DNA of 64,000 nucleotides from Basidiobolus meristosporus CBS 931.73. Its lineage: Eukaryota; Basidiobolomycota; Basidiobolomycetes; Basidiobolales; Basidiobolaceae. Positions 50,175 to 56,429 of this stretch are shown here, piece after piece (the first letter of the stretch is position 1; each line of letters starts with the position of its first letter). The notes beneath the pieces were generated by a model. The model made no database searches. It was not told the origin of the DNA and saw only the letters and a list, made by a program, of their open reading frames with translations. The position numbers were made by a program, and so were the translations under genes. The stretch spans positions 62,001-126,000 of the forward strand of contig MCFE01000042.1 of the NCBI GenBank assembly GCA_002104905.1, read 5' to 3'.

Positions 50175-50954
50175 ACTATCGAAAGGATCTTGAGTGTCCT
50201 GCGGATGATTGTAGGTTGGTTGAAAGGAGTTTAGAGGCGAAAACAAACTTGAGGGACGACCTGATCGTAAGTATACTACAAACTTAACTATTGTGCGATC
50301 AAGTTGACATAGCTAAACGCATTAGTTGTTAATAGGAGCATAAATCGGTGGGACCCAACGCAGAATCGAAATGTAAATAAAGGAAAGGTTAAATGGATCA
50401 ACTGGGTTTAGGTATGATCGTGGTATTGGATAATCACACCATGTTCGTGCGATCATTAATAGCGCAACGCTTGTAGAACACTGGTAGTACCTATGTCTTA
50501 CTTGATATTAGTAAACAACCGTGGATGAAAATGTAGACGGGATGAAGACGGTCCGAATATTTATCCAATCCTTTCGTTTCTCACATCTTATAGAAATGTA
50601 ACTATTACATATGGCTAGTCATTGCTGGTAATACCAATGATGATGGCAGCTGGTAAATCGCCCAATTCCCCTATCTCACCTCGTAGCCAATGCCCAGTAT
50701 CCAAAAACATGAATCACACAGAGAAAGCGCTACGGCAAAGGATGAGCACCAGAGATGTGATGGAAGTAATTAGATTTAGCCTCTAGCAGAAGTTAATGTT
50801 GCACAAGGGTTTCTTGTTGGTCATAGGGATCCCGGGATTGGATGATGGCACAAACATAAGGTTAGGTTTAAGTTTGGGGTAGCGTACCCAGAATAATATA
50901 AAGCCACGCAGCGTGTCCATGTCAAGCACCTGCTGGCACTCGACTTCCATCATT
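50175..50954. promoter_or_regulatory. Divergent promoter region, RhoGAP / MFS transporter
   Basis: 780 bases between divergent starts. 'ataatataaagcc' (about 50892-50904) lies some 50 bases before the transporter ATG and could be a TATA element. No ORF of note. Confidence 0.4.
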
Positions 50955-52287
50955 ATGCCAAACGTGAGTGATCCGGAAAAATCGGACGAGTTTCAATCTG
51001 AGAAGTTAACCCTTGATGAGGATTCTAAACTCGACGTTCCTCCAGAAGGTGGCTATGGATGGGTGGTGGTGCTTTCGAGCTTTCTAATCCACTTTGTCGT
51101 TCTCGGCGTCCAATACTCCTGGGGTATTTATCAGCAGTATTACCTATCACACACCTTTGCTGGTCGCGTGAAAGCTTCGTCACTATCGTTGGTTGGGACT
51201 ATCGGTGCTGCTGCCATGCCCATATGTGGCATCGTGACTGGCCGATTGGCAGATAGGTACGGGTTTAAACTCATCGCTTTTTGCGGAACAGCAACCCTCA
51301 CCTTAGGCCTGATACTTGCCTCCTTTGCAAAGGAATTATGGCACCTGTACCTTACTCAGGGGCTGTTGTATGGAGTTGGCAGCTCTCTATGCTTCTTCCC
51401 CGCAATCAGCGTCCCATCACAGTGGTTTAAGCAGAGGCGTGGATTGGCAGTGGGTATTGCTGTCTCCGGCTCAGGTATAGGCGGATTGGCTTTGGGCCCA
51501 GCCACCGACAGGCTGATCTCAAGCTTGGGCCACCAATGGGCTCTACGGGTTACTGGAATCTTCTCGTTTGTACTGCTTAGTGTAGCATGCATCCTCTTGC
51601 GAACCAGAGCCAAGACCAAGGTGAACAGCCCAATCATTGACGTAAAGTTATTCAAAAACCCAAAATTCATCATCATGTGCCTTGGTGGAGTGACATTTAG
51701 CTTTGGCTATCTGATCCCCATGTACTATATTCCTGACTACGCTTCGTCCATCAGCCTTTCGGCCAGCTCTGGTGCTCTGATAGTTGGGCTCCTGAACGGC
51801 GCCTCCGCCTTGGGTCGAGTGTTGCTTGGCACGGCGGCGGATAGATTTGGCCGGCTGAACCTTCTGGTGTTCTGTATGCTGGTTGGATCCTTGTCCACCC
51901 TGATTATCTGGCCGAATGCGGGCTCTTTTGCACCGCTTCTGATCTTTGCTCTCCTGTTCGGGTTCACCGCAGGCGGGTTCATCAGCTTGTTTCCGGTGGT
52001 GATTGCTAATATATTCGGTAAGTGGAGCATACAGTGAGTTTCAGTGATGATTCGTGGTAACACAAGCCTCTCTAGGGTTGGAGAATCTCGCCACAGTGAC
52101 TGGCCTGGTTTATGCGTCCACGGGTGTTGGGAACCTCGCTGGGTCGCCCACAGCAGGCGCGCTTCACGATAGCACCTCTGACTATCTGCCTGTGATCTTA
52201 CTCTCGGGCGTTACGATGGTATTCGGTACGCTGGTCAACTTTGGGTTGCGTATGATGGTCGAGAGGAAGTTGTTCGCAAAAGCCTAG
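50955..52287 (+). CDS. MFS transporter, monocarboxylate porter (MCT/SLC16-like) family
   Basis: Exons 50955-52017 and 52076-52287 (58-nt intron, GTAAGT); 424 aa. Start taken at MPNVSDPEK; an upstream in-frame ATG at 50919 would add 12 residues. The hydrophilic N-terminus is followed by the MCT signature 'DVPPEGGYGWVVVLSSF' in TM1. About 12 membrane helices; 'GRLADRYGFKL' between TM2 and TM3 and 'GRVLLGTAADRFGRLN' in the second half are MFS loop motifs. Probable H+-coupled uptake of a small organic acid at the plasma membrane; fungal relatives carry varied substrates (riboflavin, carboxylates), so the substrate is open. Confidence 0.92.
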
Positions 52288-52626: not shown

Positions 52627-54168
52627 ATGCGACTGCCTGATGTCGCGGAAGTAGCATTGACGTGGTTTGTTCTGCTCCTGGGCATCTTTCCTGCTGAACC
52701 TTCACCGCTTTCGACTGTCATAAAGGTTCGTGATATCGGTCTCAGAAAAAACGATGGTAAATAGAGTTGCTGACCCATGGTTTCTTGGCTGTATTTGACA
52801 CGATTCCCCAATCCGATTTAGTGGCAGCTCTAACTGAACAATGTGGCCCGGACATCTATTGTTTACCCAAATTCAACGTCACCTGGACCATGGGTAGCGT
52901 AGGGCTGTTAAGGTGGAACCCGAACTATCCGACCTTCAGAGTCCAAGGCTTTGTTGACATACGTTTGTACGAGATGACCAACACACGCAAGCCAGTCAAG
53001 GAGTGGCTCAACATAACCAATGAGGATGGTTTATGGTCCATCAATCTAGATCACTCAAGTGGCATTTTCCCCGAGGTCTTCAGGCGCCCCAAGAACACAA
53101 CGGTGACTCGACATTACCGGTTTCTAGTGACTGCCAACAGCGACCCTATCGAGGGAAAACAAAAGGGCCCCATTTTCACCATAGAAGGTGAGTCTGCCTT
53201 CCCACTCGTTGGCGCAACTGATCACTCACTTAACACCGCTTCGTAGACCCGCCGCCGCCTGAAGAAGTGAACTCCAACCCCCTACATTTTGCTCTCCCTA
53301 TATCCAACAATTCCTTATTGATCCATCCTGAGGGCACCAGCTCCAGTGCAGCTCCACATACCACTGTTGACCCCGACAAGTCCCAAACAGACGAATTCTC
53401 CAGCGCAGATGCCACCAAGTCCTCGGATAAACCCCCAAGATCCTCTCCGTCGTCTGGCACCGTTGTCGGGATAATCGCTGGCACGTCGATTGGCCTTATG
53501 CTTCTCATTGGATATCCTTTAATTCCGAATCTCTTTGAATTCACTCGTTTGCCTTGTATATTTGTATGGTGCCTTAACTCGCAGCTTTTACGCTAATTTA
53601 TTATCTTATTCGACACTGCGATCGAGCCAATTTCGTCAGAAGAGCCAAATCCCTGAACCAAAATCAATCCAACTTCCCGCCAATGATCGAGACCCACCAC
53701 CAGAACCTCTCGCGCTATTCTGTGGCAGGGTACGCCAGCACCGAAGCTTTCCTCCCCACCAGTGACCATGAGAATCGAAGTCACTCCTATAGCAACCATG
53801 ATCAGCACATCCTGGCCGCTCTGCCAAACAATTCGTCCGGCGCCAACCAGCTCTCCCCAACTGAGCAAGATTTTGAGCCTGATCCCTTACGCCTGACGGT
53901 AAAAGATGCTCAGCTGATAGCGGAAACGTACAGGAGGCTGCTAAGAAAACCTAGCTGGAATGCTGACGAAGGAAAAGATTTGGCAAAACGCAACACATAC
54001 ACAGACGAGCTATTACGACGAGAGCTCCAAGCCGATGGGAAGGGGGTGAAACAAGTGAATACCGCACCCACTATAATAGTAGTGAATGAGGAGCAAAAGC
54101 TGAACCGGACCAGTATGATGTCAGTGGGGCATTTGGAGGAACTGCCTAGCCCAACCAGAATGATATAG
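52627..54168 (+). CDS. Orphan single-pass type I membrane glycoprotein
   Basis: Four exons: 52627-52756, 52822-53187, 53247-53511, 53592-54168; about 445 aa. N-terminal signal peptide (hydrophobic 'LTWFVLLLGIF'). The extracellular part has several N-glycosylation sequons (NVTW, NITN, NTTV, NNSL), paired Cys ('EQCGPDIYCL'), then a Ser/Thr/Pro-rich stalk. One TM helix 'VVGIIAGTSIGLMLLIG|LIYYLI' is interrupted by intron 3 and completed by splicing, followed by Cys/Arg-rich stop-transfer and a cytoplasmic tail of ~190 aa. The layout resembles fungal cell-wall sensors but I recognise no family. Intron 3 (53512-53591) is AT-AC with U12 signals; no GT-AG intron of usual length gives a continuous frame there. 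Confidence 0.75.
53512..53591 (+). other. U12-type AT-AC intron
   Basis: 5' splice site ATATCCTTT matches the U12 AT-AC consensus perfectly. Branch element TGCCTTAAC (53570-53578) is 8 of 9 to TTCCTTAAC. The intron ends in AC (53590-53591), 14 bases after the branch adenosine. Removing these 80 bases joins phase 2 to phase 1, makes a Gly codon and restores the transmembrane helix and the following 192-codon frame. Confidence 0.85.
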
Positions 54169-54761
54169 CTTGTTGGGCCAGACGATACATGCAATTTTGA
54201 ATGAAAGATACGCTTCGTTGAAGAGATTTTGTCGTCTCAGCTGGTCTACGGTGTCCAGGCTACTCTCGATGAATCAATATTGGCAACACCTATTTGGTCA
54301 GAAACCCCCTGCCAAGAGGCAAATTGAAATACGCTTTGATATCCCCGATCCTCGGGAAACGAACTCAACCATGGATTGATGGTTGCAAGGGTAATTAATG
54401 GACATTTCGGGACATTTACCAACAACATCTTTGATGAATGCGTGTTACGTAATAAAATCCCGATTAATCTTATTATCAAAAATATCGGCACTGGTGGTTG
54501 TTGGATGGAGAAAGGCATACGCCTGTGTCATTGATTGGCGGTTAGCGCGTAAAAATAGCCCAAATGTTAGGATGGTTGATGGAGATTCAATTTGCGCAGA
54601 GTTAAAGTTACTAAGGTAAGATTCCATGCAAGTATTGGACTTTTCGGTCAAGCCAACTAGCGCGATCTTATTGGTGATCCATTGATACATTCTGTCAGGT
54701 CAACTCAATTCGAAGGATAAAACTCGACTACCGTAAACTAGCCCTTCAGTGTGTACTGAAA
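54169..54761. other. Intergenic, upstream of GMPPA
   Basis: About 590 bases with no convincing gene. Short ORFs near 54250-54620 have no recognisable features. Confidence 0.4.
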
Positions 54762-56429
54762 ATGTCTTGTAAAGCAGTTATTCTAGTTGGTGGTCCTTCT
54801 CGTGGCACCCGGTTTCGCCCACTCTCTCTCAACGTCCCCAAACCTTTGTTCCCCGTCGCTGGCCAACCCATCTTGTATCATCATGTCTGCGCACTCGCGA
54901 AAGTTCAAAACCTTACTGAAATTCTGATGATTGGCTTCTATGAAGACTCCATCTTCACCAGCTTCATCGATCGCATCAACTTCGAATTCCCTCATCTCAA
55001 GATCACGTAAGTACAGTTTGAAGTATTTTTCCTCTGTTTGGCTGATGTAGTTAACGGTGGACATATTCTATTATTCTAGCTACCTTCGGGAGTATCAAGC
55101 TCTTGGAACTGCAGGTGGTATTTATCACTTCAGAGATAAAATTCTTCTTGGCGCTCCTAGCAACTTCTTCGTTCTGAATGCCGATGTGTGCTGCTCCTTC
55201 CCACTTAACGAAATGATGGCTTTCCACAATGAGAAAAACGCCATGTGTACCATCTTGGGCACCAAGGTAAATCCCAACCCCATGAGAGTTTGAGAAGTTC
55301 GCCAGAATTGAAGCCTTTGCAATCGATTTGACAGGTCGAAAAGGCCACTGCTAACAGATTCGGTTGTATCGTGGCCGAACCTGAAACCAACGAAGTTCTT
55401 CACTACGTAGAAAAGCCCGAGTCCTTCGTCAGTGACCTTGTGAGCTGTGGTATCTACCTGTTCCAGCGTTCCATCTTCACTGAGATCAAGCACGCTGTAG
55501 AGAAGAAGGACGAAGAGTATCCTTTAACTATATGATAGCTAGCATTCGAATTGGGAATCCTGTTTGTTACAACCCTTAATTTAATGCCTCCATAGTGTTA
55601 TTGATAACGAGGCTGGATTCGTTGAAGAAAGTACCGAGCGTCTTCAATTGGAACAAGACATTTTCCCAAGATTGACTGCGCAGAAAAAGATGTTCGTGTA
55701 CTCGTCCCGAAGCTTCTTCAGTCAGATCAAAACTGCGGTGTAAGCTTAGAACCCATTCGAGTTGTTGGTGGCCCTTTCAAAACTAACGTTTGGTCGTTCC
55801 AACCTTCATCCTATCAGGTCCGCATTACCTGCCAGCAACCTTTATCTCCGAGAGATGTATGAGAACTCCCCAGAGAAACTGGCACGTACTTCGCAACATG
55901 GACCAGAAATTGTCGGGGCTGTTTACATTCATCCTTCAGCCAATGTCCACCCAGAAGCTAGAGTAAGTGTTCCAAACTGCGGAGCAAACTGCGATCCATC
56001 AAGTCTAACCATAGCTAAACTTGGTTTTAGATTGGGCCCAATGTTTCGATCGGCCCTCGTGCAGTAATCGGCAAAGGTGTTAGAATCAGAGATTCCATCA
56101 TTCTTGATAATGTGGAGATTCAGGTGGGTTGATTGACATGCATGCGTGACCTGGCAAATACTAACATGGTTTATCCCATTTCCCAGGATAACAGTTGCGT
56201 TCTTTGGAGTATTATCGGTTGGAGCTCTCGTATTGGCACTTGGGCTCGTGTTGAAGGCACCCCAATGGACAACTACAACGCCACCGTCACTCAGAACGGC
56301 GTCAAGATCCAGTCGATCGCAATCCTTGGCAAGGAGGTCAACGTTGATGACGAGGTGGTCATTCGCAACTGTATCGTCCTCCCTCACAAAGACCTTACCA
56401 TCAACTGTCACAACGAAATTCTACTATAG
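54762..56429 (+). CDS. GDP-mannose pyrophosphorylase, alpha (GMPPA) type
   Basis: Seven exons: 54762-55006, 55080-55266, 55335-55516, 55596-55739, 55818-55962, 56031-56123, 56187-56429; 412 aa. N-terminal nucleotidyltransferase domain: '[20 protein letters not shown]' is the GMPPA form of the nucleotide-binding loop ([12 protein letters not shown]), then '[12 protein letters not shown]', 'GTAGGIYHF' and '[10 protein letters not shown]'. The C-terminus is a left-handed beta-helix ('[20 protein letters not shown]', '[16 protein letters not shown]') ending 'CIVLPHKDL'. It acts in GDP-mannose supply for glycosylation and cell wall; alpha-type subunits are regulatory in animals. Intron 3 has U12-type signals. 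Confidence 0.94.
55517..55595 (+). other. Probable U12-type GT-AG intron in GMPPA
   Basis: 5' splice site GTATCCTTT is the exact U12 GT-AG consensus. A weaker branch element ACCCTTAAT (55572-55580) lies about 16 nt before the AG. 79 nt; joins exons in frame (phase 2). Confidence 0.7.

Follow-up and report, generated by a model that had tools for sequence, protein, structure and literature searches.

Which intron interrupts the membrane helix of the gene at 52627-54168, and which of two splicing machines would remove it? The gene lies on the plus strand of a 64,000-base window of Basidiobolus meristosporus CBS 931.73 DNA (the whole stretch analysed, C669:62001-126000 in the assembly). The public model K493DRAFT_334152 places a 29-nt GT-AG intron at 53556-53584 here, whereas a preliminary description proposed an 80-nt AT-AC intron of the U12 type at 53512-53591. 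The minor spliceosome, which would remove the latter, is a second splicing machine that has been lost in most fungi. The best explanation of the whole locus, which we hold with high confidence, is that the AT-AC intron is functional and U12-dependent, that its host encodes a single-pass surface protein belonging to a Psg1-like family that has expanded in Basidiobolus, and that gene duplication carried an ancestral intron into at least 11 genes, with two to three clean losses.

Signals of the intron and its host gene

The intron at 53512-53591 (plus strand, phase 2) begins with the 5′ splice site ATATCCTTT (53512-53520), which matches the expression [AG]TATCCTT, carries the branch site TGCCTTAAC at 53570-53578, and ends in the 3′ splice site AC (53590-53591). 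The genome's own U11 could form six contiguous pairs, one of them G-U, with ATATCCTTT. The branch site agrees with TTCCTTAAC at eight of nine positions and can pair with the U12 stretch GAGUAAGGA: the predicted duplex with the genome's own U12 has -5.2 kcal/mol, against -6.6 for TTCCTTAAC. The distance from the branch A (53577) to the last intron base (C53591) is 14 nt, still short though slightly beyond the optimum of 11-13 nt given for U12-type introns in PMC3584512. The 14 nt that the preliminary description placed before the terminal AC hold for the branch A and the last base, not for the nine-base motif, which ends 11 nt before AC. The pattern ATATCCTTTN{40,70}CCTTAACN{6,14}AC has one match in the 64,000-base window and none in 100 dinucleotide shuffles, and the GT-AG minor-intron pattern GTATCCTTN{38,68}CCTTRAC has none within the 64-kb window. 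The junction left by removal of the AT-AC intron, GG|G in phase 2, gives the peptide ...GTVVGIIAGTSIGLMLLIG-LIYYLIRHCDR..., while with the intron kept in the frame stops at 53594-53596.

By the known pathway of minor splicing (PMC3584512 and PMC8199999, also for the spacing), U11 would recognize the 5′ site by pairing with AUAUCCUUU and U12 would pair with the branch site. Next to join would be the U4atac/U6atac.U5 tri-snRNP; U6atac would replace U11 at the 5′ site, and excision would unite the codon GG|G and the two halves of the membrane helix.

The host gene starts with a signal-peptide-like first exon (52627-52729), whose 3′ end is tentative, the public protein implying about 52725 by codon count. 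An exon for the extracellular, Psg1-like domain follows at 52822-53187; its 5′ end is uncertain and lies earlier in the public model. After an ordinary GT-AG intron (53188-53246), whose junction is identical in the public protein, come an exon encoding a Ser/Thr-rich stalk and the first part of the membrane helix (53247-53511), the AT-AC intron, and an exon encoding the helix remainder, basic residues and a tail with a LRLTVKDAQLIAETYRRLLRKPSW motif (53592-54168). Judged from their translations, the neighboring frame at 50883-52287 resembles an MFS monocarboxylate transporter and that at 54678-56067 a GDP-mannose pyrophosphorylase. The host protein matches the profile of Psg1 (Ykl077w, PF14610) weakly along its extracellular domain: 21.2 bits over 47-252, reaching into the helix, for the AT-AC-spliced protein, and 18.0 bits over 64-179 for the public model. 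Both values lie below the curated cut-off of 30.1 bits, which two of six other scanned proteins reach (P0012, 32.0; P0008, 30.1), so that the window protein is called Psg1-like only.

Minor spliceosome components and the U6atac box

The preliminary description held that this organism keeps U11, U12, U4atac and U6atac, and a search of the assembly (89.0 Mb, 1311 contigs) bears this out: all four snRNAs, including the U12 and U6atac for which a search had been proposed, are matched over their full models in the same genome, and none of the four has a match in 14 control genomes (0/14 each). Two of the four exceed the Rfam gathering score, namely U11 (two copies, 76.8 bits) and U6atac (63.2 bits, cut-off 33); U12 (46.9 bits) and U4atac (43.4 bits) stay below their score of 53, which counts against functional U12 splicing. 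Stem II between the genome's own U4atac and U6atac is intact, with 13 contiguous pairs, one of them G-U, and U11, which keeps AAAAAGGG, is normal. The U11 genes on C215 and C738 (excerpts L012 687-820 and L013 1501-1634) have the same sequence and the same near flanks; they are perhaps haplotype copies in the assembly.

The proposed search for minor-spliceosome proteins covered 35K and 31K and found the former. A U11/U12-35K gene is found as three colinear stretches at C957:170111-170940 (query 7-43, 68% identity; 105-142, 47%; 135-166, 72%), two of which lie outside or reach past the RRM; the exon reading is our own. The best match of the 35K query is another RRM protein on C857 (32% identity, in the RRM only), a point against the assignment, so that the call is based on the weaker but colinear C957 stretches. 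The 31K protein (ZCRB1) was not found in the genome, where its 21 matches, two of them inspected more closely, were to the general RRM only; this too counts against the minor-spliceosome reading.

A further objection comes from U6atac itself. The only gene found (C779:39963-40096, minus strand; excerpt L010 1501-1634) has AGUCG in place of AAAGG in its 5′-splice-site box: it starts with GUGUUGAUACGAGUCGAGAGAAAGUUAGCA, while the consensus is GUGUUGUaUGAAAGGAGAGAAGGUUAGCA. In other respects it is like RF00619, with its score well above the cut-off, the GUUAGCA core, the partner strand for U4atac stem II and a T-run at its end; with TTATAAG 23-29 nt upstream as well, it resembles a Pol III gene. 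It differs in carrying AGUCGAGAGA at the place of AAAGGAGAGA in the Rfam consensus. U4, C5, U8 (by G-U wobble) and U9 of the 5′ splice site can pair with this RNA in the usual register, but C6 and U7 cannot, facing C and U of U6atac. The best U6atac/5′-site duplex drops from -6.4 kcal/mol to -2.3, a value reached in another register. A shifted register with 7/9 pairs (longest run, 4) was considered and dropped; the consensus U6atac offers a similar one. No second U6atac copy was found in the assembly at up to 3 mismatches, the single match being the C779 gene.

Tentatively, the U6atac box may have drifted, AAAGG having become AGUCG. In that case U11 alone would maintain and recognize CCTTT, and U11 would hand over to U6atac through a broken helix that lacks the C6 and U7 pairs. 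This proposal has somewhat less than an even chance of being right. Alternatively, a canonical U6atac copy may be absent from the assembly, or the U6atac stretch may be misassembled. Incorvaia and Padgett reportedly found in 1998 that the pairing of U6atac with the 5′ splice site is required in human cells; a drifted box, if true, would relax this pairing.

Public models, paralogues and the origin of the intron

The AT-AC-spliced protein finds K493DRAFT_334152 (P0001) as its best match, with 93% identity over 100% of the query. P0001 carries the 17 residues YPLIPNLFEFTRLPSFT, for which one junction accounts, that of the 29-nt GT-AG intron, which starts 44 bases into the AT-AC intron. The preliminary description stated that a GT-AG reading here would need an intron of only 29 nt; this proved too narrow, as the frame is preserved by introns of 38 nt (53547-53584), 71 nt, 80 nt and longer as well. 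Such alternative in-frame readings leave extra residues in the protein, or delete some of the helix or of what follows it. An open frame by itself says little about the junction, since many other intron pairs preserve it too. Hydropathy was likewise dropped as proof of it, the annotated protein being nearly as hydrophobic over a 21-residue stretch (2.09 vs 2.17). Of the claim that AT-AC removal restores frame and helix, therefore, the open frame through the helix stands, while neither property proves the junction. What settles it is the comparison of paralogues, which supports the AT-AC intron.

The paralogues were gathered by protein similarity (searches with P0003 and P0012), not by the intron. 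They comprise 17 loci, or 15 distinct genes with each of the near-identical pairs C893/C646 and C626/C166 taken as one. Of these loci, 12, representing 11 of the 15 genes (C669, the window gene; C427, C778, C893/C646, C749, C1068, C379, C1091, C538, C486 and C280), share the position of the AT-AC intron in the helix and its phase, 2; the other five loci (four genes: C542, C365, C957 and C626/C166) are intronless, and the helix is read straight through. All 12 intron-bearing loci have ATATCCTTT, CCTT[AG]A[CT] and AC; intron positions 1-9, the branch CCTT and the final AC are invariant in 11/11 genes, and the branch A lies 8-15 nt from the intron end. Since all 12 introns were recognized by a donor-motif expression ([AG]TATC[CT]T or ATATCCTT), this invariance would be partly built in by the search, but at the five other loci this intron is missing altogether, so that the family has no member with a diverged donor. 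At C427 and C1091, where the frame stayed open with two or more ACs, the AC with the best helix fit was chosen. Conservation does not extend to the intron interiors, which align at a mean identity of 0.72, as against 0.70 after shuffling (55 pairs, sd 0.075, one shuffle per pair).

Six public models of intron-bearing members were tested for the AT-AC junction, which fits three of them (P0004, P0007 and P0012). At C749 (P0012) it is the sole fitting junction; at C778 (P0004) and C1091 (P0007) one-base shifts with CA-CA or TA-CT ends fit too. The models of the window gene, P0003 and P0005 do not use the AT-AC junction, which counts against the AT-AC reading. P0003 (C427) reads through the motif and has a 37-nt GT-AG intron further on, and P0005 (C646) uses a 196-nt GT-AG intron, by which the membrane helix is lost.

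Could the public model be right, with the major spliceosome removing the 29-nt intron at 53556-53584 and YPLIPNLFEFTRLPSFT really present in the helix region? P0001 has exactly the sequence that this junction generates, the reading keeps an open frame, and the hydropathy maximum of its product is almost unchanged. The insert, however, is absent from all other aligned members, P0003 reads through the same motif (GYPL) and then differs in sequence, ATATCCTTT is kept at the boundary in eleven genes, and the six tested models are mutually inconsistent at this junction; this possibility is therefore very improbable. The B. ranarum relative P0002 also has no inserted peptide and is one residue longer at the junction. 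These comparisons point to errors in the public models at the window gene and in two paralogues (P0003 and P0005). The major (U2) spliceosome might instead remove the AT-AC intron, as it does some rare AT-AC introns elsewhere. But the intron has a complete 5′ site and branch site of the U12 type, spaced as in such introns, and the genome has all four minor snRNA genes, which makes this extremely improbable. The AT-AC intron of the preliminary description is thus confirmed by its signals, by the unique match in the window and by the agreement of the paralogues; its splicing by the U12-dependent machinery is predicted.

The history of the intron was read from a family tree (IQ-TREE, LG+G4, 267 columns, midpoint root). 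There the intronless C626/C166 join the intron-bearing C280/C486 (support 100), and the intronless C957 and C365/C542 join C749/C379/C1068 (100; inner node 78). As far as sequence comparison can tell, this favors a single intron that was present in the family's ancestor, spread as the genes duplicated and was cleanly lost two to three times, on a midpoint-rooted tree with one deep node at 52. Independent gains in several paralogues, or a single gain after the intronless members had split off, could be imagined from the fact that the intronless members fall in two parts of the tree, that some nodes are weak (52, 78, 82 and 87) and that the root is a midpoint root, no outgroup outside Basidiobolus having been found. 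Position, phase and motif are, however, identical in 11 genes across the tree, and both intronless groups are nested with intron bearers at support 100, so that such gains are unlikely. In a search reaching only relatives that share short exact words, the window protein had 12 matches at E ≤ 0.001, every one of them a B. meristosporus or B. ranarum protein. Minor introns are also carried by the duplicated SCN and CACN1 ion-channel genes (PMC2831892), which likewise keep U12-type introns across a gene family; the present family differs in being fungal, in being restricted to Basidiobolus among the 12 matches, and in the clean losses of some members.

Minor introns in the genome of Basidiobolus

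Minor splicing has been described as lost in Ascomycota and Basidiomycota and present in Rhizopus and Phycomyces (PMC2846911). For B. meristosporus, 249 minor introns have been reported (Larue and Roy, 2023; PMC10639083), so that the core claim is already published. RNA-seq of strain CBS 931.73 has likewise been used in published work (PMC7466969). That survey used annotated introns and left out those shorter than 30 nt; with a 29-nt intron in the public model, the AT-AC intron is probably absent from the 249. It resembles published U12-type introns in its 5′ site, branch site, spacing, non-zero phase and the presence of four minor snRNAs, and differs from the 249 in being absent from the public gene model. 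No description of the intron-sharing family or of the altered U6atac was found in passages of the cited literature. In a literature search, Basidiobolus was found with the minor spliceosome in PMC10639083 alone and with U6atac in that paper and a springtail genome paper, and no paper linking it with Psg1 was found. New here are the mismatch of the public model at the window gene, the intron common to 11 of 15 paralogues, and the apparent change in the U6atac box.

Genome-wide counts were made for the AT-AC subtype. The pattern ATATCCTTN{40,70}TTCCTTAAC has 16 matches, against two for the reversed pattern. By our reading, an AT-AC splice flanked by open frames is obtained at 11 of the 16 (the upstream run being short, 21-31 residues, in L015, L018 and L023); among these, L016 and L028 are members of the window gene's family and L024/L029 are near-copies. 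Two others (L017, L020) fit AT-AC or AT-AG, and three (L022, L026, L027) are unconvincing. From their peptides, L020 is presumably in a gene like that of an inositol polyphosphate kinase, L025 in one like VPS33 and L014/L015 in one like that of a MyTH4-domain protein. The pattern ATATCCTTTN{38,68}CCTTRAC has 78 matches against three when reversed, all counted, although several are identical copies on two contigs; nine of the 78 belong to the window gene's duplicated family.

Part of the high number of minor introns reported for Basidiobolus can be traced concretely to this one family. The altered U6atac, if real, would be a natural test of how much 5′-site pairing the minor spliceosome needs.
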